DNA of 64,000 nucleotides, taken from assembly GCF_000368065.1 (NCBI RefSeq), contig NZ_KB851203.1, positions 1 through 64,000 of the forward strand. Direction: 5' to 3'. This document shows, piece by piece, positions 3,908 through 53,372 of this stretch (positions are counted from its first letter, which is position 1; each line of letters opens with the position of its first letter). This stretch comes from Acinetobacter seifertii. Lineage in GTDB: Bacteria; Pseudomonadota; Gammaproteobacteria; Pseudomonadales; Moraxellaceae. A program made the position numbers and the translations under genes. The notes beneath the pieces were generated by a model, which saw only the letters and a program-made list of their open reading frames with translations, was not told where the DNA came from and did not search any database.

Positions 3908-5210
3908 ATGCGATTTTTTGGATTTTACAATAATAAAATCCATCACCAGATTGAGCTTGTGGCAACAATTGTTTGCCATGAGTTTGTTCAACTCCCCAAG
4001 CTGCTTCGATTTTCACTTCTTTTGCATCGGTATGTTCTGCAAAGAAGTCGATCATCTGTTGTTCATTTTCAGCTTTTAAAATTGAACAAGTGATGTAGAG
4101 CAATGTGCCACCAACTTTAAGTTGTTGCCACATGTGTTCCAAAATCTGCTTTTGTAGCTCAATGGTTTGCGCTATATCGGTGGATTGACGTAATAGGCGT
4201 ATGTCAGGGTGACGTCGAATGACACCTGTCGCAGAACAAGGTGCATCAAGCACGATACAATCTACTGGTTCAGTCGGAGTCCACTCGGTTGCATCGGCAG
4301 CCAGAATTTCAGTATGGCTTTGATCTAGTGCTAGTCGGTTTAAGTTTTCAGTCACGCGGACTAAACGACTCGCGTCCTGATCAATTGCGATTAACTGTGC
4401 TGGTTTAAATTTTTCTAGCAAGTGAGCTGTTTTACCACCTGGAGCAGCACAAGCATCAATCACTATTTTATTGTTTAAATCAGGCAATAGAGTTGCACAT
4501 AGCTGTGCATGTTCATCTTGTACAGAAAACCATCCATCTTCAAAACCAGGCAGCTGGGTAATTTGTACAGATTGCTCAAGAACAATACCTGCTTCAGATA
4601 GAGCACATGCACGTGCCTGAATATCTAGACTTTGTAGTTTTGCTAAATAAGCATCTCGACCAATGTGTCGCTGGTTCACTCGTAAAGTTAAAGGTGCAAC
4701 TTGTTTTAATGATTGGCAGAGTGCTTCGGTTTGTTCACCCCAATCTTTTTTTAGTCGCTTAAAGAGCCAACTTGGTAAGCCATGCGCTTGCTGTAAACCT
4801 TGCTGAAAATCATCAGTTTCACGAGTAGCTCGGCGTAAAATAGCATTTACAATGCCACTGAGTGCAGGGAATCCAAGTTGTTTGGTCGCATCTACTGTTT
4901 CCGAAATGGCAGCATGTGCTGCAATACGCGTACATAAAACTTGATAAAGACCAACGTATAGGCAGGTTTCTACTGTCTCATTATTTAAAGGCTTACTGAG
5001 TAGAGGTAAGCTAATTGATTTAAGGGCAAACCATTGACGCAATGTACCTAATACAAGCTCATGGAATAAAGCACGGTCACGCTCTGCCACTTGATTGAGC
5101 TGTGTATTTAAAATACTAGCAAGTGATTGTCCTTGCTGAACTTTTAATAACGTCTGGACGACTTGAGAACGTAGGTTAAAACGTGATGAATTTGAATTAA
5201 CCTGACTCAT
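3906..5210 (-). CDS. rsmB: 16S rRNA (cytosine(967)-C(5))-methyltransferase RsmB
   Basis: 434 aa. The N-terminal NusB-like RNA-binding domain (about 1-140) is followed by a Rossmann-fold SAM methyltransferase domain. Motif I IDACAAPGGKT lies at 251-261. The two RNA m5C methyltransferase cysteines are C325 in LDAPCSATG and C375 in YITCS, the same positions as the E. coli catalytic pair. It methylates C967 of 16S rRNA in the cytoplasm. Its ATG overlaps the fmt stop codon by 4 bases, the usual fmt-rsmB operon. The def gene that often precedes fmt is not adjacent here. Confidence 0.95.
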   Translation of the reverse strand: MSQVNSNSSRFNLRSQVVQTLLKVQQGQSLASILNTQLNQVAERDRALFHELVLGTLRQWFALKSISLPLLSKPLNNETVETCLYVGLYQVLCTRIAAHAAISETVDATKQLGFPALSGIVNAILRRATRETDDFQQGLQQAHGLPSWLFKRLKKDWGEQTEALCQSLKQVAPLTLRVNQRHIGRDAYLAKLQSLDIQARACALSEAGIVLEQSVQITQLPGFEDGWFSVQDEHAQLCATLLPDLNNKIVIDACAAPGGKTAHLLEKFKPAQLIAIDQDASRLVRVTENLNRLALDQSHTEILAADATEWTPTEPVDCIVLDAPCSATGVIRRHPDIRLLRQSTDIAQTIELQKQILEHMWQQLKVGGTLLYITCSILKAENEQQMIDFFAEHTDAKEVKIEAAWGVEQTHGKQLLPQAQSGDGFYYCKIQKIA

Positions 5211-6169
5211 GGCAAAATCTGTCCTACGTGAAGTTTTTGAGTTTGTGCAATTTGTTGAGCATTTAATGCTTTACCACCCGGCCATTGCACACTCGTCAAA
5301 CAAACAAATGTATTTTCACCGCAAGCAACATGCACGCCTTGTTTATCAATTGCAATAATTTCACCAGCTTGGGCATCTGCTTTGCTTTGACTAGAAACTG
5401 TTGAGTTCCAAACACGCAGTGCATTATTTTCATCAAGTTGAACAAAAGCGACTGGCCAAGGGTTAAATGCACGGATATTTCGGTCAATTTGAACAGCATC
5501 AATTGACCAATCAATACGAGCTTCTGACTTTACGAGTTTATGAGCATAGACCGTTAAGCTTTCGTCTTGAACTTCGCGTTCTGCCAAATATTTTTGTAGT
5601 GTTTCTTCTGACTCAAGTACTGCACAAATTGCTGTTGCACCTTGATCTGCAAGTTTGTCATGCAAAGTCGCAGAAGTATCTTCGGCAGTGATTGGGCAAT
5701 AGGTTTTATACATCATATCGCCTGTATCTAAACCGGCAGCCATTTGCATGATGGTGATACCAGTTTCTTCATCACCTGTTGCAATCGCACGTTGAATTGG
5801 CGCTGCACCACGCCAGCGTGGTAATAATGAGCCGTGAATATTTAAACAGCCATATTTAGGTGTATCGAGTACAGCTTGTGGAAGAATCAAACCATAGGCT
5901 GCAACCACCATCACATCAGCGCCTAAAGCAGCCAATTCTTGTTGAGCAGCCAAGCCTTCTTCGGTGGAAGCTTTGAAGTGGAGTGGTTGATAAACAGGAA
6001 TATTGTGTTCAAGTGCAAGCTGTTTCACAGGGGATGGCGTTAATTTTTGTCCACGACCCGATTTACGATCTGGCTGAGTATAAACCGCGATAATTTCATG
6101 GGAAGTTTTTAATAAAGCCGCCAATGCTGTTGCAGCAAATTCGGGGGTGCCAGCAAAAATAATTTTCAC
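5207..6169 (-). CDS. fmt: Methionyl-tRNA formyltransferase
   Basis: 320 aa. It transfers the formyl group from 10-formyl-THF to Met-tRNA(fMet) to make the initiator tRNA. The N-terminal formyltransferase domain (1-~205) carries the catalytic set N110, H112 and D149 (in LNIHGSLLPRWRGAAP and GLDTGDM), and the C-terminal OB-like tRNA-binding domain follows. The start ATG is supported by the conserved MKIIFAGTPEFA opening. It overlaps rsmB by 4 bp and is divergent from ilvD across about 350 bp. Confidence 0.96.
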   Translation of the reverse strand: MKIIFAGTPEFAATALAALLKTSHEIIAVYTQPDRKSGRGQKLTPSPVKQLALEHNIPVYQPLHFKASTEEGLAAQQELAALGADVMVVAAYGLILPQAVLDTPKYGCLNIHGSLLPRWRGAAPIQRAIATGDEETGITIMQMAAGLDTGDMMYKTYCPITAEDTSATLHDKLADQGATAICAVLESEETLQKYLAEREVQDESLTVYAHKLVKSEARIDWSIDAVQIDRNIRAFNPWPVAFVQLDENNALRVWNSTVSSQSKADAQAGEIIAIDKQGVHVACGENTFVCLTSVQWPGGKALNAQQIAQTQKLHVGQILP

Positions 6170-6517
6170 AAATGCAATCCAAAAAGAGTTTATGGGTAGT
6201 ATACGTGAAAAACGTTTGAAGCCCTAAACTCATAGCGATCGAGCGTTTTAGTTTTTTAATAGTGAACAAAAAATTATTGAAAAAATTTTATTGATAAAAA
6301 AAGGTTATAAAAAAATAAAAAATTATTCATGTAAGTTTTGTTAAATATTGACTGAGTATTATCGTTATTGGCTTTCCCTATATTATTTGCTTCTATAGAA
6401 TGGAGAATGATCAAATTATGATGATGAGTCAATATTCCGACTGATCTAACGCTATATCAGTATCATTCAGCTAGAGTGGAAGAAATTCCGCTCAAGCACA
6501 ACTTGTTGGAAACACAA
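6170..6517. other. Divergent intergenic region fmt/ilvD
   Basis: About 350 bases, strongly AT-rich in the middle. It must hold the fmt and ilvD promoters. A TTGACT at about 6348 and AT-rich blocks downstream are possible promoter parts, but the spacing is not good enough to call. No branched-chain leader peptide with Val/Leu/Ile codon runs was seen. Confidence 0.4.
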
Positions 6518-8347
6518 ATGCCTGACTATCGTTCAAAAACATCGACACACGGAAGAAATATGGCTGGCGCACGTGGCTTATGGCGTGCAACAGGAATGAA
6601 AGATGAAGATTTCGGCAAACCGATTATTGCGGTGGTCAATTCATTTACTCAATTTGTTCCGGGCCATGTCCATCTAAAAGATCTAGGGCAGCTTGTCGCA
6701 GCAGAAATTCAGGCAGCAGGTGGTGTTGCTAAAGAGTTCAATACAATTGCAGTGGACGACGGTATCGCAATGGGGCATGACGGCATGCTTTATTCATTAC
6801 CTTCACGTGATTTGATTGCAGACTCGGTTGAATACATGGTGAATGCACACTGTGCAGATGCCATGGTGTGTATTTCTAACTGTGACAAAATTACACCGGG
6901 AATGTTGATGGCTGCGATGCGCCTAAATATTCCAGTAGTTTTTGTTTCTGGCGGACCAATGGAAGCGGGTAAGGTTAAATTCCGCGGTAATGAAAAAGCG
7001 ATTGACCTTGTTGATGCCATGGTTGTTGCGGCTGATGAAAGTTATACAGACGAAGAAGTTGCAGAATTTGAACGTTCAGCATGTCCAACCTGTGGTTCAT
7101 GTTCAGGTATGTTTACTGCAAACTCAATGAACTGTTTAACCGAAGCTTTAGGCTTATCTTTACCGGGTAATGGTTCGATTGTTGCGACGCATGCAAACCG
7201 TAAAAAATTATTCTTAAAAGCAGGTCAGCTTATTGTCGAATTGGCTAAGCGCTATTACGAACAAGAAGATGCAAGTATTTTACCTCGTTCAATTGCAACT
7301 AAGGCTGCATTTAAAAATGCGATGACGCTTGATATTGCAATGGGTGGTTCAACCAATACAGTTCTACATTTATTGGCTGCGGCAAGTGAAGCTGAAGTTG
7401 ATTTCACCATGGATGACATCGACGAATTATCACGTCGAGTTCCTGTACTTTCAAAAGTAGCACCTGCAAAACAAGATGTTCATATGGAAGATGTTCACCG
7501 TGCGGGCGGCATTATGGCGATCTTAGGTGAGCTTGATCGTGCGAATTTACTTGATGTATCTGTACCGACTGTACATGAGAAAACTTTAAAAGATGCATTA
7601 GATAAGTGGGACATTATTCGTACTGAAGATGCCGACGTTTATGAGTTCTATCGTTCATCTCCGGGTGGCGTACCAACTCAAGTGGCATTCTCACAAAACC
7701 GTTACTACTCAACTTTAGATGGTGACCGTGAAAAAGGCGTGATTCGTAATGCAGAGCATGCATTCTCTAAAGATGGTGGTTTAGCAGTTCTATACGGCAA
7801 CATCGCGCTTGATGGTTGTATCGTGAAAACTGCGGGTGTAGATGAATCGATCCTTAAATTTACGGGTACAGCACGCGTATTTGAAAGCCAAGATGCCGCT
7901 GTAGATGCAATTTTGGGCCATGAAATTAAAGCTGGTGACGTTGTGGTGATTCGTTACGAAGGTCCACGTGGTGGTCCGGGTATGCAAGAAATGCTTTACC
8001 CAACCAGCTATCTTAAATCGAAAGGTTTAGGAAAAGACTGTGCATTGGTGACAGATGGTCGTTTCTCTGGTGGTTCATCAGGTCTTTCCATTGGACATGT
8101 TTCGCCGGAAGCTGCGGAAGGCGGTGCAATTGGTTTAGTTGAAGATGGCGATACCATTGAAATTGATATTCCAAACCGTACGATTCACTTGAACGTTGAT
8201 GATGCGACTATGGCGCACCGCCGTACAGTTCAGGAAGCGAAAGGCTGGCATCCGAAAGAAGAACGTAAACGTAAAGTATCAAAAGCGTTAAAAGTTTATG
8301 CAATGCATACAACAAGTGCGGCAAAAGGAGCTGTACGCGTTCTATAA
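6518..8347 (+). CDS. ilvD: Dihydroxy-acid dehydratase
   Basis: 609 aa from ATG 6518. The opening [20 protein letters not shown] matches known IlvD N-termini, so an upstream in-frame GTG at 6476 is not needed. The enzyme dehydrates 2,3-dihydroxy-isovalerate and -methylvalerate, the third common step of valine and isoleucine synthesis. Fe-S and active-site residues are visible: C122 in [12 protein letters not shown]195 in [19 protein letters not shown], and acidic Mg2+ ligand D81 in VDDGIAMGH. The region near the C-terminus carries the GRFSGGSSG motif. It is monocistronic with its own terminator. Confidence 0.96.
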
Positions 8348-46523: not shown

Positions 46524-46564
46524 AAATTACACAATTCATAATTAAATTATGTATTGCATAATTT
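46524..46564. promoter_or_regulatory. Tandem 21-bp operator pair upstream of hpd (IclR sites?)
   Basis: Two copies of AAATTA-N7-CATAATT(T/A) lie at 46524-46544 and 46544-46564, exactly 20 bp apart. The second sits in a perfect 12-bp inverted repeat (46540-46551 and 46557-46568) with a 5-nt spacer. The same element occurs as a 20-bp-spaced pair upstream of fahA. The IclR regulator encoded at 48060-48839 is the natural candidate ligand; that is inference. Confidence 0.65.
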
Positions 46565-46938: not shown

Positions 46939-47994
46939 ATGGATATTTTAGAGAACCCATTAGAACTATGCGGTTTTGCATTTATTGAGTTTGTTTCAAA
47001 AGAAAATGAATTAGATACAATTTTTGAAACCATCGGCTTTTCAAAAGTAGCCAAGCATAAATCGAAAAAAGTGTACTTATGGCGTCAAGGAAATATCAAT
47101 ATTATCCTGAATTATCAGCCAGAATCTTATGCTTCATTCTTCTTTAATGAGCATGGTCCATCTGCTTGCGCAATGGGATTCAAAACACGTGATGCGGCAA
47201 AAGCTTTTAAAAAGGCTGTTGAGCTTGGTGCAGAACCAATGCAATCTAATATTGGGCCGATGGAGCTTAACATTCCGGCAATTAAAGGTATTGGTGGCAT
47301 GCCAATCTTCTTGGTTGACCGTGACATTTATGAAAATGACTTTGTTTTCTTTGATGATGCACAGCGTCACCCAGAAGGTGCTGGTTTAAATGAAATTGAC
47401 CACTTAACTCATAACGTCTACAAAGGCCGTATGGAGTACTGGGCGAACTTCTACGAGAAGATTTTTAACTTCCAAGAAATTCGTTACTTCGACATTAAAG
47501 GCGAATATACAGGTTTAACATCTAAAGCGTTAACTGCTCCAGATGGCATGATCCGTATTCCTTTAAATGAGGACTCAGACAAGGGTAACGGTCAAATTGC
47601 AGAATTCTTAGCTGATTTTAATGGCGAAGGTATTCAACATATTGCGTTTATTTGTGATGACTTAATTTCGACTTGGGATAAGTTAAAAGGTTTGGGTCTT
47701 CAATTTATGACTCCACCACCAAACACGTATTATGAAATGTTGGAAGACCGTTTACCTGAGCATGGCGAACCGACTAATGAATTACAGCAGCGCGGTATTT
47801 TGCTTGATGGTAATACTAAAGATGGTCAGAAGAAGCTTTTATTGCAAATCTTCTCTCAAAACATGATTGGACCAGTATTCTTCGAATTCATTCAACGTAA
47901 AGATGACGACGGTTTTGGTGAAGGTAACTTCAAGGCACTGTTTGAATCGATTGAACGTGACCAAATTCGCCGTGGCGTTCTCGAAGCAAAATAA
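46939..47994 (+). CDS. hpd: 4-hydroxyphenylpyruvate dioxygenase
   Basis: 351 aa. It turns 4-hydroxyphenylpyruvate into homogentisate in tyrosine/phenylalanine catabolism. The Fe(II) triad is visible as H155 ([10 protein letters not shown]), H234 (GIQHIAF) and E316 (FFEFIQR), equal to the known HPPD ligands with an offset of 6. The C-terminal [15 protein letters not shown]...[18 protein letters not shown] is diagnostic. A GAGGG site precedes the ATG. Convergent with the IclR gene. A tandem operator lies about 375-415 bp upstream, so a long leader is present. Confidence 0.97.
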
Positions 47995-48059: not shown

Positions 48060-48839
48060 TTAGCGGCTTTTAATATATTGATTAATTAAATTAATCTCAT
48101 TTTTAAGCGTTTCAATAATTTTACTTTGTGGGTCGACGGGTAAAAACATTTCGCTATCCAGTGCCACAATACAAAACTCAATGCTCTGGTTTGAGTTAAA
48201 TACTGGTAGACCTACTGCGTTAATACCTGTGAGTAAATCACCTTTCGCTGCTGACATTTGTTGCTGGCGAATGGTTTCTTTAAGTTCTAAAAATTCTTGC
48301 CAGTTGTGCGGCGCAATATTTAGTCCAAGTTCATGGTGCTTTTGCCATTCGGCTTCCATTAAGGGACGAACAAAATGCTCTGGAAGATAAGAAGCAAATA
48401 AACGTCCCGCAGCAGAATTGACTAAAGGCATAATCGAGCCGACTTTAGTAACAATCGAAATAGGGTGGTTAGACTCAATTGACTGAACCACGACAGGGCC
48501 TTTAGGCGACCATTTACTAATTTGTATGCCGCAACCAATTTTGTTTTGTAGGTCGTAAATTAAATGCTGTACGAGCTGTAGTGTGTCGCTATGTTGAACA
48601 CAGTTTAGACCTAAGCGCCATGCCTGATCGCCTAGGGCGTATTGACCATCATCAAGCTGTTTTGCATATTCCATACGAATAAGGCTAACCAGATAGCGGT
48701 GTACTTTAGCCGGATGCATTTCTAGCTTGCTAGATAGATCTTTGAGAATAATAGGTTGATTGTGTTCCAAAAGGGCGTTTAGTACAGATAAACCGACTTC
48801 AAGTGATTGAACCCCCCCAGATACTTTTTCTTCAATCAT
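48060..48839 (-). CDS. IclR-family regulator of the tyrosine/homogentisate locus
   Basis: 259 aa. The N-terminal winged HTH (about 12-70) reads LEVGLSVLNALLEHNQPIILKDLSSKLEMHPAKVHRYLVSLIR. The C-terminal IclR effector domain includes AAGRLFASYLPE. Its position between hpd and fahA-maiA matches HmgR of Pseudomonas putida, an IclR regulator that responds to homogentisate. It likely binds the 21-bp tandem sites at 46524 and 51794. Effector and mode are inferred from HmgR. Confidence 0.87.
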   Translation of the reverse strand: MIEEKVSGGVQSLEVGLSVLNALLEHNQPIILKDLSSKLEMHPAKVHRYLVSLIRMEYAKQLDDGQYALGDQAWRLGLNCVQHSDTLQLVQHLIYDLQNKIGCGIQISKWSPKGPVVVQSIESNHPISIVTKVGSIMPLVNSAAGRLFASYLPEHFVRPLMEAEWQKHHELGLNIAPHNWQEFLELKETIRQQQMSAAKGDLLTGINAVGLPVFNSNQSIEFCIVALDSEMFLPVDPQSKIIETLKNEINLINQYIKSR

Positions 48840-49060
48840 TTAAATACCCTTAATAAATTTACTTCAGCTGTTAAACAGTGACGATCAAAACATAAATTGA
48901 AATTGCTGCGATTTACATCATGCCTGAGCCTCGCGAGAAATAGAAATCACCTTTTTCTATTAGCGAAATTGGCATGTTTAATAATCAACAATTTTCTAAA
49001 ATCACTATGCTCTCATTTATAGCGCAATTTTCTAGAAATTTAGCGTTTTTAAATAATATA

Positions 49061-49113
49061 AATCGGCATTGATATAGAAACGTTTATTCAAACAATTCTA
49101 ATCAATGCCGATT
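49061..49113 (-). terminator. Long-loop terminator-like hairpin after the VOC gene
   Basis: AATCGGCATTGAT (49061-49073) pairs perfectly with ATCAATGCCGATT (49101-49113) around a 27-nt loop. On the minus strand the tail is TATATTATT, only moderately T-rich. It ends the fahA-maiA-VOC operon. Confidence 0.6.
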
Positions 49114-49134
49114 TTTTAGTTTGCTGTTTTAAAA

Positions 49135-49683
49135 TTAGGTTCCTAACTCTTCTTCATGTAAGAAGTGAGTGTGGTGTGGAGCGCGTTTGGTTTTGCTCCA
49201 TTCATCTAACATTTCAGCTTTCATTTCTTCAGTAATTTTTGCAATTTTTTCTTCAGCATGAACATCGTTATAAGTCAGTTCTAAACGATGGCCATTTGGG
49301 TCGAAGAAATAAATTGAGTGGAAAATTCCATGGTTTGTCACGCCCAACACTTTCACGCCATTTTCTTCTAAATGTTGTTTCGCAGCCATTAGGGCATTTA
49401 AATCTTCAACTTCAAAAGCAATGTGTTGGACCCATTGAGGTGTATTTTCGTCTCGACCCATTTCTGGTTGAGTTGGTAATTCAAAAAATGCCAAAACGTT
49501 GCCTTGACCAGCATCTAGGAATAGATGCATATAAGGGTCAAAGGCTTTCGTTGAAGGAACATGGTCTTCAGCAAAAGCTAAGATAAAGTCCATGTTGAGC
49601 ATTTTTTTATACCACTCAACAGTTTCTTTCGCATCCTTACAACGATATGCAACGTGATGTATTTTTTTAATGGCAAATGTCAT
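49135..49683 (-). CDS. VOC-family protein; candidate homogentisate ring-cleavage dioxygenase
   Basis: 182 aa from ATG 49683, with an AAGGAG site; an in-frame upstream extension overlaps maiA and is unsupported. The two beta-alpha-beta modules of one VOC domain are visible. Metal ligand candidates are H10 (HHVAYRC), H87 (VQHIAFEV) and E135 (HRLEL). H118, Y125, DPNG (128-131) and E135 follow the spacing of the type I extradiol dioxygenase signature as I remember it. It is the last gene of fahA-maiA-VOC, 16 bp after maiA. hmgA, the usual enzyme between hpd and maiA in the pathway, is missing here, so this protein may do that step. Alternatives are a glyoxalase-like or accessory isomerase. Cytoplasmic. 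Confidence 0.6.
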   Translation of the reverse strand: MTFAIKKIHHVAYRCKDAKETVEWYKKMLNMDFILAFAEDHVPSTKAFDPYMHLFLDAGQGNVLAFFELPTQPEMGRDENTPQWVQHIAFEVEDLNALMAAKQHLEENGVKVLGVTNHGIFHSIYFFDPNGHRLELTYNDVHAEEKIAKITEEMKAEMLDEWSKTKRAPHHTHFLHEEELGT

Positions 49684-49699: not shown

Positions 49700-50332
49700 C
49701 TATTCCCAATCTGGTTGTTGTTCTGGCGCCGCGTTATAGAAGGCTGGGATAGACAAACAATGTTGATAAATTGATTCAATTTTTGGAAACGCAGATAAAT
49801 CTATCTTGAAGCGTTTCGCGTTGTAGACTTGTGGAATCAGGCAGCAATCGGCAATCGTTGCTTGTTCTCCAAAGCAAAATTGTCCGTTTGAATCTTGAAG
49901 TTGCTGCTCAAGACTTTGAAAGCCTTCAATAATCCAGTGCTGATACCAATAATTTTTCTGCTCATCTGAAACATTTAAGTCATTTTTTAAATATTTCAGT
50001 ACGCGTAAGTTGTTTAAGGGGTGAATATCGCAAGCGATTGCTTGTGCAAAAGCACGGATTTTGGCTCTCTCTTTCACATCATTTGGAAGTAGTTTGGTTT
50101 CTGGATATTGTTCATCCAGATATTCCAAAATACTTAATGACTGTGACAAGGTTAAATCGCCGTCCACTAAAGTTGGCACTAAGGCACTGCGATTTAACTT
50201 TAAATAGTCTTCACTTTGCTGCTCATTTTTAACCAAATGAACTGGTGCAGTTTCATAAGCGAGACTTTTAATGTTGAGACCAATCCGTACTCTGTAAGCT
50301 GCAGAGCTACGAAAGTAACTATACAGCTTCAT
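49700..50332 (-). CDS. maiA: Maleylacetoacetate isomerase (zeta-class GST)
   Basis: 210 aa from ATG 50332, with GGAG upstream. It isomerises maleylacetoacetate to fumarylacetoacetate using glutathione. The N-terminal zeta motif reads YFRSSAAYRVRIGLNIK; the motif Cys is Ala, as in other bacterial members. LVDGDLTLSQSLSILEYLDE and the C-terminal FGEQATIADCCLIPQVYNAKRF are typical. It overlaps the fahA 3' end by 14 bp. Confidence 0.93.
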   Translation of the reverse strand: MKLYSYFRSSAAYRVRIGLNIKSLAYETAPVHLVKNEQQSEDYLKLNRSALVPTLVDGDLTLSQSLSILEYLDEQYPETKLLPNDVKERAKIRAFAQAIACDIHPLNNLRVLKYLKNDLNVSDEQKNYWYQHWIIEGFQSLEQQLQDSNGQFCFGEQATIADCCLIPQVYNAKRFKIDLSAFPKIESIYQHCLSIPAFYNAAPEQQPDWE

Positions 50333-51626
50333 AATCTGGCTCCGAAGTTTCTGCAAAATCAAAATCTAATGCAGGAAGTACAGTGTTTCGGACTTCACCA
50401 AAGCCAATACGGATACCATTTTTCTCACAGTGACCTTTCATAATGAGCGTATCGCCGTCTTGTAAGAAACCACGAGTTTCACCATTGGCAAGTGTTAAAG
50501 GCTTGGTGGTATTCCAAGTCAGCTCAAGCAAGCTGCCATAAGAGTCAGGTGTAGAACCTGAAATGGTACCCGAACCCATTAAGTCACCAACCTGAACGTT
50601 ACAGCCAGCAATCGTGTGGTGAGTCAGCTGCTGAGACATAGACCAATACATATATTTAAAATTGGTTTTACAGATCACATCAGCTTGTGCTGATTTAGGT
50701 GTTTGAATCTCAACACTCAAGTTAATGTCATAACTATTTGCGACATTTTCTTGTAAATAAGCCAGTGGTTTTGGTTCTTGTTTCGGGCCTTCAACTTTAA
50801 ATGGCTCAAGTGCTTCAAGCGTTACCACCCAAGGTGAAATTGAACTTGCAAAAGTTTTCGCATTGAATGGGCCAAGAGGAACATATTCCCATTGCTGAAT
50901 ATCACGTGCTGACCAGTCGTTTAGCAGAACCATTCCAAAAATATGGTCCCAAGCATTTTCAATCGAGATAGGCTGTCCCAATTGAGTTGGTTTACCCACA
51001 ATAAATGCTGTTTCAAGTTCGAAATCGAGTTTACGCGTTGCAGAAAAAACTGGACGTTCTTCATTTGGAAGTTTGATTTGACCTGATGGGCGTACCACTT
51101 GAGTTCCGCTCACTACAACAGAGCTAGCACGACCGTTATAACCTACAGGTAATTCGGTCCAGTTTGGAAGCAAGGCATTTTTAGGGTCACGGAACATACA
51201 GCCGACATTGGTCGCGTGTTCTTTGGAAGAATAAAAATCGGTATAGCCAGGTACGCGAACAGGTAAATGTAAAGTCACGCTGTCTTGCTTAACTAGAACT
51301 TCCTGACGTAATGCTTCATTTTCTTGAAGCGTTAAATTTTCAACTGAAAGAAGAGACTGTAATGTTTTACGAACTTTAGACCAGTTAGCTTTGCCGGATT
51401 CAATAAATTTATTCAGTGTAGGCTGGTTAAAGTATGTGTCTTGATCTGAAAGTTTTAAAAGACCGTGCTTTTCAAGAGCAGCGAGATCAATGACCCAATC
51501 ACCAATAGCTACACCGACCTGACGCTCGCCTTCGGCTGTTCTACTAAAAATACCATAAGGCAAATTATGAATAGTGAAATCAGATTGAGGTGAAACTTCA
51601 ATAAAAGAGTTTAGTTTTTGTTCCAT
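50319..51626 (-). CDS. fahA: Fumarylacetoacetase
   Basis: 435 aa from ATG 51626 (MEQKLNSFIEVSPQSDF), with AAGGAAG upstream. It splits fumarylacetoacetate to fumarate and acetoacetate, the last step of tyrosine degradation. Metal and active-site regions are TDFYSSKEHATNVG, LDFELETAFIVG (Glu pair), LNDWSARDIQQWEYVPLGPF, and VGDLMGSGTISG. It heads fahA-maiA-VOC. Its promoter region is shared with the divergent AroP-type gene and holds tandem operator sites. Confidence 0.95.
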   Translation of the reverse strand: MEQKLNSFIEVSPQSDFTIHNLPYGIFSRTAEGERQVGVAIGDWVIDLAALEKHGLLKLSDQDTYFNQPTLNKFIESGKANWSKVRKTLQSLLSVENLTLQENEALRQEVLVKQDSVTLHLPVRVPGYTDFYSSKEHATNVGCMFRDPKNALLPNWTELPVGYNGRASSVVVSGTQVVRPSGQIKLPNEERPVFSATRKLDFELETAFIVGKPTQLGQPISIENAWDHIFGMVLLNDWSARDIQQWEYVPLGPFNAKTFASSISPWVVTLEALEPFKVEGPKQEPKPLAYLQENVANSYDINLSVEIQTPKSAQADVICKTNFKYMYWSMSQQLTHHTIAGCNVQVGDLMGSGTISGSTPDSYGSLLELTWNTTKPLTLANGETRGFLQDGDTLIMKGHCEKNGIRIGFGEVRNTVLPALDFDFAETSEPDYEAV

Positions 51627-51793: not shown

Positions 51794-51834
51794 AAATTAC
51801 GCAATACATAATTTAATTACACATTGCATAATAA
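51794..51834. promoter_or_regulatory. Tandem 21-bp operator pair upstream of fahA
   Basis: AAATTA-N7-CATAATTT at 51794-51814 and TAATTA-N7-CATAATAA at 51814-51834, again exactly 20 bp apart. This matches the pair upstream of hpd in sequence and spacing. It is a likely binding site for the local IclR regulator. Confidence 0.65.
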
Positions 51835-51983: not shown

Positions 51984-53372
51984 ATGTCAACACAAGAGCA
52001 AGGAAACCTGAAACACGGTTTGAGTAATCGTCACATCCAGCTGATTGCATTGGGTGGAGCGATTGGTACAGGGCTGTTTCTTGGTATATCACAATCGATT
52101 AAATTGGCAGGTCCATCGGTAATCTTGGGTTATGCGATTGCAGGATTTATTGCTTTTTTAATGATGCGCCAGCTCGGTGAAATGGTGGTCGAAGAGCCAG
52201 TAAGTGGTTCTTTTAGTCATTTTGCTTATAAATATTGGGGACCATTTGCAGGCTTCATGTCAGGATGGAACTACTGGGTACTTAACGTACTGGTATGTAT
52301 GGCAGAGTTAAGTGCAATTGGTCTGTATATTCAATATTGGTGGCCGCAAATCCCAACGTGGGCATCCGCGCTAACGTTCTTTATTCTCATTAATGGTATT
52401 AATTTATTGCACGTTAAGTTTTTTGGCGAAATGGAATTTTGGTTTTCCATTGTTAAAATCTTAGCAATTTTAGCCATGATTGCTTTCGGTTCGTATTTAC
52501 TTGCAACCGATACAGCAGGGCCACAAGCAAGTATCAGTAACCTTTGGGCATTAGGCGGTTTCTTCCCGTTTGGTGTTGAAGGCTTGGTGATGGCAATGGC
52601 AGTCATTATTTTTGCTTTTGGCGGTATCGAGCTTTTCGGTATTACTGCGGCTGAAGCACGTGACCCAGACAAAACCTTACCTAAAGCGGTAAATCAGATT
52701 ATCTATCGTATTTTGATTTTCTATATTGCAACGCTTCTTGTTTTATTCTCATTATTCCCTTGGAATCAAATGGCACAAGGTGGCAGTCCTTTTGTAATGG
52801 TGTTTGCTTCTTTAGACAGCCAAGGTGTTGCGACTTTACTTAACTTCGTGATTTTGACTGCTGCGGTTTCAGTTTATAACGGTACAAGCTATTGCAGTAG
52901 CCGTATGTTGTTAGGCCTTGCTCAGCAAGGAAATGCACCAAAAGTATTTGCACGTATTAATAAACGCGGTATTCCAACCAATGCAGTGATCCTTTCTGCG
53001 GCAGTCACTATTTTATGTGTGTTGTTAAATTACATTTTCCCTGAAAAAGCGTTTGGCTTACTCATGATGCTCGTGGTTGCAGCGATTGTGATTAACTGGG
53101 TCGTAATTTCATGGACACATTTAAAATTCCGTAAGTTTATGATGCGCCAAGGTCAAACTACGAAATTCCCAAGTTTCATGTACCCATTTAGCAACTATCT
53201 CTGCATGGTATTTATGCTTGGAATTTTAGTTGTCATGTCGCTAACGCCAGATATGCGTGTGGCTGTGATGATGATTCCGGGATGGATTTTGTGCTTAATG
53301 GTGGCTTATCAATTTAAACGCCGTAAGTTAAAAGCTGAGCAGCCTGTACATGCTTTAGAAGCAGATATGTAA
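51984..53372 (+). CDS. aroP: Aromatic amino acid permease, AroP-like (APC family)
   Basis: 462 aa with 12 TM segments. It follows E. coli AroP closely by eye: [58 protein letters not shown] and VKFFGEMEFWFSIVKI. It is a proton-coupled importer of Phe, Tyr or Trp in the inner membrane. Its position divergent from fahA supports import of tyrosine/phenylalanine for the pathway. A strong terminator follows. Confidence 0.88.
   Translation: MSTQEQGNLKHGLSNRHIQLIALGGAIGTGLFLGISQSIKLAGPSVILGYAIAGFIAFLMMRQLGEMVVEEPVSGSFSHFAYKYWGPFAGFMSGWNYWVLNVLVCMAELSAIGLYIQYWWPQIPTWASALTFFILINGINLLHVKFFGEMEFWFSIVKILAILAMIAFGSYLLATDTAGPQASISNLWALGGFFPFGVEGLVMAMAVIIFAFGGIELFGITAAEARDPDKTLPKAVNQIIYRILIFYIATLLVLFSLFPWNQMAQGGSPFVMVFASLDSQGVATLLNFVILTAAVSVYNGTSYCSSRMLLGLAQQGNAPKVFARINKRGIPTNAVILSAAVTILCVLLNYIFPEKAFGLLMMLVVAAIVINWVVISWTHLKFRKFMMRQGQTTKFPSFMYPFSNYLCMVFMLGILVVMSLTPDMRVAVMMIPGWILCLMVAYQFKRRKLKAEQPVHALEADM

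Follow-up and report, generated by a model that had tools for sequence, protein, structure and literature searches.

A single-domain VOC-superfamily protein as the likely homogentisate 1,2-dioxygenase of the Acinetobacter tyrosine operon

Which enzyme opens the homogentisate ring in Acinetobacter? The question is raised by a tyrosine breakdown cluster in the 64-kb stretch of Acinetobacter seifertii DNA analyzed here (the window). Homogentisate-forming 4-hydroxyphenylpyruvate dioxygenase (HPPD) is encoded by hpd (positions 46939 to 47994, plus strand; TIGR01263, 383 bits), maleylacetoacetate isomerase by maiA (49700 to 50332, minus strand, 633 bp from the ATG at 50332; TIGR01262, 296 bits), and fumarylacetoacetase by fahA (50319 to 51626, minus strand, 1308 bp from the ATG at 51626; TIGR01266, 588 bits); all three proteins score above the curated cutoffs. 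The first gene of the operon, fahA, overlaps maiA by 14 bases, and a 16-base gap with an AAAGGAG-type ribosome site separates maiA from the last gene, which spans 49135 to 49683 on the minus strand and encodes a 182-residue VOC-fold protein (P0001, ATG to stop), the predicted homogentisate 1,2-dioxygenase. To the left of this gene lie an IclR-family regulator gene on the same strand (48060 to 48839; PF09339 and PF01614), HmgR-like by context, and then hpd; to the right of fahA, on the plus strand, is a gene for an AroP-like aromatic amino acid permease (51984 to 53372; PRK10238, 687 bits, below the cutoff of 848). The original prediction, which proposed that the VOC protein replaces HmgA, had named HPPD, MaiA, FahA, the IclR regulator, and the permease at this locus, and profile matches agree; it had also placed the VOC gene at the end of the fahA-maiA operon, as coordinates and spacing confirm, and to this we add the strand. 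Between the VOC and IclR genes (48840 to 49134), an inverted repeat, AATCGGCATTGAT...ATCAATGCCGATT, followed by a T-rich stretch, was noticed by eye; it is possibly a terminator, acting in either direction.

The canonical ring-cleavage enzyme, cupin-type HmgA, is the one lost in human alkaptonuria, and its fold is unrelated to the VOC fold. It shares with the VOC protein a reaction and a pathway position, as far as these can be deduced for the latter, but it is unrelated in sequence and has about 430 residues rather than 182. A genome-wide search for canonical hmgA, the check that accompanied the original prediction, found no match to the HmgA profiles PF04209 and PF20510 in the whole genome from which the window comes (a 4.23-Mb draft of 16 contigs with a completeness rating of 100%). 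The profile search was run with 14 control genomes, among which Caulobacter was positive. Likewise, PF04209 had no match in any of 149 Acinetobacter genomes.

A public structure bears directly on the identity of the VOC protein. PDB entry 9U42 (release date 2025-07-23) bears the title "Crystal Structure of Homogentisate 1,2-Dioxygenase from Acinetobacter in Complex with Zn ion" and gives the molecule name as Glyoxalase; the metal in the crystal is Zn, not Fe, and the function is named in the entry title. Our protein is from the same genus, has the same fold, and is 98% identical to 9U42 over all 182 residues; the three substitutions in the alignment are not expected to alter function. Homogentisate dioxygenase function has thus already been assigned to this protein type in a public database, and the claim itself is not new. 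We found no paper on 9U42 or on a VOC-type homogentisate dioxygenase among the best-ranked open-access titles. The available excerpts of the GapMind paper (PMC9007349), PMC5343134, and PMC12718150 do not name such an enzyme, and PMC6449761 lacks all six terms sought in it. Given end-to-end orthology to 9U42 and an operon for the homogentisate pathway in a genome lacking HmgA, together with the evidence below, we put the probability at roughly 93% that the VOC protein acts as a single-domain homogentisate 1,2-dioxygenase of the VOC superfamily, in place of cupin-type HmgA.

The protein belongs to the VOC superfamily by its PF00903 score (65.1 bits against a cutoff of 20.6) and by the two E-H-E-E-E units of its structural model; glyoxalase-type models were the only ones for which it passed a Pfam cutoff, so that it falls outside the cupin-type HmgA family. 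Type I extradiol dioxygenases carry the PROSITE signature H-x(5,7)-[LIVMF]-Y-x2-[DENTA]-P-x-[GP]-x(2,3)-E, and LinE and PcpA are members that act on hydroquinones. As originally predicted, the 182-residue translation contains the triad H10/H87/E135 and the motif H118-x6-Y125-x2-DPNG-x3-E135 exactly as described. By sequence, H10, H87, and E135 would supply the 2-His-1-carboxylate site of this enzyme type in all 74 aligned sequences, and the signature with its second-sphere histidine and tyrosine is present in 101 of 101 distinct close sequences. H10, H53, H87, H118, Y125, and E135 are invariant in those 101 sequences (the window's included) and throughout the 74-row alignment, which reaches down to 31% identity; such invariance argues that the H10/H87/H118/Y125/E135 pattern is not due to chance. 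A profile alignment places H118, Y125, and E135 on the motif RHGITRG-TIYFFDPSGNR-E of catechol 2,3-dioxygenase. The protein differs from classical type I extradiol dioxygenases such as catechol 2,3-dioxygenase and BphC, which are two-domain proteins of about 290 to 320 residues, in having 182 residues and one VOC domain pair.

FosA/FosB thiol transferases and glyoxalase I have the VOC fold as well, and FosB even has the DP-x-G-x3-E element. Of the two residues on which the original prediction had relied, H118 retains most of the weight, while Y125 discriminates little: in our alignments the tyrosine of (I/L)YF-DPNG/DPDG is found in FosB and in an integron protein too. H118 is common to catechol 2,3-dioxygenase and has no counterpart in FosB or the integron protein in the printed alignments; because FosB lacks this histidine despite having the tyrosine and DPDG, H118 is the informative residue. 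NCBIfam scores also fall far short of the equivalog cutoffs, at 41 bits against 171 for FosB (PRK04101) and 28 against 120 for glyox_I.

An AlphaFold model built on the 74-row alignment had a pLDDT of 94.1; a model based on a narrower alignment of 38 rows reached a pLDDT of just 53 and was set aside. The best fold match of the model is 9U42 (TM 0.89, rmsd 1.5, VIA Z 21.4). Foldseek ranks 6ON1 second (TM 0.61), and VIA-align places other glyoxalase-type proteins ahead of it. 6ON1 is the L-DOPA dioxygenase of Streptomyces sclerotialus (also 6ON3), likewise a small ring-cleaving dioxygenase of VOC fold, with a catechol-type substrate; it is the best named dioxygenase after 9U42 among the fold matches listed, with a query-based TM of 0.61 for chain A of 6ON1 and 17 to 18% identity for 6ON1/6ON3. 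LinE and PcpA are not among the 50 fold matches listed, which excludes nothing.

Fosfomycin thiol transferases and glyoxalases are among the nearest matches in both sequence and structure, as would be expected if the VOC protein had an accessory, glyoxalase- or thiol transferase-like role in the tyrosine operon and homogentisate were excreted by Acinetobacter. The excerpt of Fonseca et al. (2020; PMC7646211) leans in a similar direction: it reports no hmgA homologue in A. baumannii, describes a gene with a type I ring-cleaving domain between hmgC and hmgR, and judges that gene to be a distant HmgA homologue that is probably nonfunctional. We nevertheless consider an accessory role highly unlikely. 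It would leave MaiA and FahA without a substrate and is at odds with the title of 9U42 and with an invariant H118 that matches catechol 2,3-dioxygenase rather than FosB; moreover, according to the parts available of PMC9431530 and PMC7646211, pigmented A. baumannii strains are rare and pale colonies are usual.

Published pigment genetics probably concern the same gene. In the excerpt of PMC9431530 (2022), Tn2006 in "hmgA" of A. baumannii DETAB-R21 is reported together with pyomelanin production, and pigment was lost when hmgA was supplied; the target duplication, called 11-bp but printed with nine letters, is CATTTTTTT. With no PF04209 match in any of the 149 Acinetobacter genomes, the gene called hmgA in that report is probably a different one. 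In the window, the duplication sequence coincides with VOC codons 26 to 28 (49600 to 49608, plus strand); every one of the 17 Acinetobacter loci examined has it at these codons, and neither maiA nor fahA of the window contains it. A second copy, by position in fahA, is present in three of the 17 loci (L008, L011, and L012), and L008 has a third, by position in the IclR gene. The window holds four copies, one of them just upstream of fahA, against 5.3 expected by chance. From these matches, "hmgA" of DETAB-R21 is very probably the VOC gene, a step that we infer rather than demonstrate, as a 9-mer alone is common. Because the VOC gene is last in its operon, an insertion in it should have no polar effect on the other two genes, maiA and fahA. 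Gene names in this literature call for care: in the part available of a 2025 outbreak paper (PMC11945678), the interval used as hmgA reference is 633 bp long and shares 14 bases with an hmgB of 1308 bp. Both sizes and the overlap are exactly those of the window's maiA and fahA, so the hmgA reference in that paper is very probably maiA and its label very probably wrong.

Candidate operators would link hpd to the fahA operon. The Pseudomonas putida HmgR site is given in an excerpt of PMC8222616 as ATTACGTTATTCGTAAT; this exact site, allowing up to 3 mismatches, has no match in the window. Two HmgR-like operators lie in the fahA-aroP intergenic region, ATTACGCAATACATAAT (51796 to 51812, plus strand) and ATTACACATTGCATAAT (51816 to 51832, plus strand), and a third, ATTACACAATTCATAAT, is upstream of hpd (46526 to 46542, plus strand). 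All were identified by pattern match: ATTAC-N6-C-N-TAAT matches at three places in the 64-kb window, none of them outside this cluster, against 0.22 expected, and 1 of 100 shuffles reached three. The pattern was drawn up after the two fahA-aroP sites had been seen, so only the match before hpd is independent. Among 13 other loci, fahA and hpd are each preceded by such sites in L032 to L035; in L031 the fahA pair alone is found, L036 and L155 have one site each, and L037 to L042 have none.

Co-occurrence across the genus fits a functional unit of FahA and the VOC protein. At a threshold of 330 bits or more, a full-length VOC orthologue is present in 71 of 149 Acinetobacter genomes, with weaker matches in three more, and FahA exceeds its cutoff in 72. 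Both genes are present in 71 genomes and neither in 77; fahA occurs without the VOC gene in one (G093), and the VOC gene never occurs without fahA. The two lie 684 to 718 bp apart in all 71 genomes that have both. HPPD is found in 64 of the 149 genomes, 63 of which have the VOC gene (63 of the 71 VOC genomes); the remaining one (G110) is 64% complete. In the genome that has FahA alone, the FahA-type gene lies in a different cluster, which matches the cluster around a second copy in G087, and HPPD is absent; its match was counted with one internal stop, which looks like the gene's own end, since the frame is open for 432 residues. In two Acinetobacter loci (L176 and L177), a FahA-type gene about 43% identical to that of the window lies in a separate cluster with an SDR-like protein and a 381-residue FAD-type protein. 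In another Acinetobacter (G121), both fahA and the VOC gene are decayed. Finally, in a record titled Acinetobacter baumannii ACIN00150 (L032), the VOC protein is only 91% identical to that of the window, where 9U42 and several relatives are 97 to 99% identical; the species name on this record may be wrong.

Eight Acinetobacter genomes with the VOC gene lack HPPD and retain FahA-MaiA-VOC, with FahA shortened in G051. In seven (L187 to L193), a gene for an FAD monooxygenase lies near the cluster, along with an IclR gene in most; the eighth (L186) has no such monooxygenase. These monooxygenases are 33 to 39% identical to one found beside the VOC gene in Alphaproteobacteria and are 568 to 569 residues long in four cases and 428 in G051, the other two being cut by the end of the stretch analyzed. 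Four of the eight clusters include two genes that, judged by eye on their first residues, resemble an acetoacetate coenzyme A-transferase pair. The HPPD-less clusters fit a pathway fed by another hydroxylase, with fumarate and acetoacetate as its end products, and those with the FAD monooxygenase are likely a second entry route to homogentisate.

Does the VOC protein stand in for HmgA beyond Acinetobacter? Among 398 Pseudomonadota genomes, 68 have FahA, of which 54 have HmgA and 14 do not. With a threshold of 200 bits or more, the VOC protein is present in 10 of the 14 genomes with FahA and without HmgA versus 7 of the 54 with both (Fisher P = 4e-5). Six genomes with HmgA matches below 50 bits were scored as HmgA negative in this count; when one of them (G373) is moved to the HmgA-positive class, the VOC protein is found in 8 of 55 HmgA-positive and 9 of 13 HmgA-negative genomes (P = 2e-4). 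Overall, 41 of the 398 genomes have the VOC protein; 38 of these have HPPD and 30 lack HmgA. TIGR01266 FahA is missing from 20 of the 30; in some of these 20, another FAA-hydrolase family protein adjoins the VOC protein (by Pfam in L127, and in more by sequence clustering).

Four genomes with FahA and HPPD (G201, G264, G378, and G571; loci L179 to L185) have neither enzyme; they contain just 40 to 45% identical VOC relatives located away from FahA, that of G201 beside an FAD monooxygenase-like gene. Missing HmgA therefore does not always mean replacement by the VOC protein. A gap that neither enzyme fills, and the fact that the window's genome is a 16-contig draft, would suit a canonical or third kind of HmgA elsewhere in the Acinetobacter genome, with the VOC protein serving some other pathway role. 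Set against the lack of PF04209 and PF20510 matches in a genome rated 100% complete, and of PF04209 matches throughout the genus set, this explanation seems to us extremely unlikely.

Gene order ties the VOC protein to HPPD. In 30 of 150 VOC loci, HPPD lies directly upstream on the same strand, with gaps between the aligned parts of 13 to 75 bp in 28 and 239 bp in two; 30 of the 150 loci extend only 1.5 kb to each side, and hpd has the opposite orientation in the group to which the window belongs. At one locus, from a metagenome assembly of Rhodoferax (L053, positions 4849 to 6534), HPPD and VOC form one in-frame, 561-residue open frame with a short linker, which is possibly a natural fusion or possibly an assembly error. 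One operon (L127) has the order HPPD-VOC-FAA hydrolase-MaiA-phenylalanine 4-hydroxylase, and its genome (G485) has no HmgA match. The original proposal that the VOC protein replaces HmgA is supported by these operons and the single fusion frame, by the phylogenetic profiles and the title of 9U42, and further by the shared operator-like site and, insofar as the 9-mer identifies the gene, by the Tn2006 and complementation genetics in the excerpt of PMC9431530.

The relationship between the two enzymes is not a simple exchange. Among 34 VOC genomes reached via named loci, chosen from a set of 80 loci, 18 also have canonical HmgA, often in the same cluster, and a pure one-for-one replacement of HmgA was accordingly dropped. 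In many Alphaproteobacteria (within L051 to L103), canonical HmgA and the VOC protein share a cluster that also encodes an MBL-fold protein and an FAD monooxygenase, in the order HmgA-FahA-MBL protein-FAD monooxygenase-VOC-MaiA in Ruegeria and Leisingera. Such coexistence indicates that the VOC protein does not serve only where HmgA is missing. It may act on a second substrate; in Alphaproteobacteria it may do so or be redundant with HmgA.

A broader role, in which the VOC protein cleaves hydroquinone-type acids generally, or mainly a homogentisate relative made by an FAD hydroxylase, with homogentisate as one substrate, would be compatible with our main reading. It is suggested by the Ruegeria-type clusters, by a PF01494 FAD monooxygenase within 2.5 kb of the VOC gene in 46 of 120 loci, and by the related monooxygenases near the cluster in seven of the eight HPPD-less Acinetobacter. 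In a tree built from 117 distinct VOC proteins plus six outgroup rows, Ruegeria-type and Rhizobium-type proteins are nearly all monooxygenase linked where the context was recognized. However, HPPD-linked and monooxygenase-linked members are mixed in several parts of the tree (L054 with L079, L073 with L088, and L107 with L149), the six key residues are the same across VOC sequences, and FahA and MaiA accompany the VOC protein in both settings. The last point fits maleylacetoacetate as the product in both, and hence a monooxygenase that makes homogentisate. We therefore think a broad or different substrate range unlikely, though worth keeping in mind, and take the VOC protein to catalyze the same reaction in both settings, with its substrate supplied by HPPD in one and by the FAD monooxygenase in the other.

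As a homogentisate 1,2-dioxygenase, the VOC protein would use H10, H87, and E135 to bind a divalent metal, which in vivo is most likely Fe(II). Homogentisate from HPPD would bind beside the metal. As in type I extradiol dioxygenases, the second sphere would include H118 and Y125, and perhaps also H53. O2 would be activated at the metal and the ring cut, presumably between C1 and C2, to yield maleylacetoacetate, which MaiA would isomerize and FahA, in turn, would hydrolyze to fumarate and acetoacetate. For this assignment, our analysis contributes the gene, the operon, the absence of HmgA, residue invariance, the predicted fold, and co-occurrence; the work of others contributes the 9U42 title and, in the part of PMC9431530 available, the pigment genetics of the gene called hmgA.

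Judging by the open-access literature searched, what seems to have been little noticed is the spread of the VOC family, its links to HPPD through operons and a fusion frame, and its coexistence with HmgA in Alphaproteobacteria. Taken together, the data make it probable that Pseudomonadota have two unrelated homogentisate dioxygenase families and that the VOC type is old, widespread, and often coupled to HPPD or to an FAD monooxygenase that makes homogentisate from a different phenol. If so, annotation and pathway tools that know HmgA only would wrongly call the tyrosine pathway broken in these bacteria. The VOC enzyme would close a gap in tyrosine breakdown for which the literature on pigmented A. 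baumannii treated the gene as nonfunctional or mislabeled it, and it would represent an independent protein family that answers the same ring-cleavage problem as HmgA. Its recognition would allow prediction of the gene losses that cause pyomelanin formation in Acinetobacter, Psychrobacter, and others, and annotation of the many genomes that seemingly lack the homogentisate ring-cleavage step.
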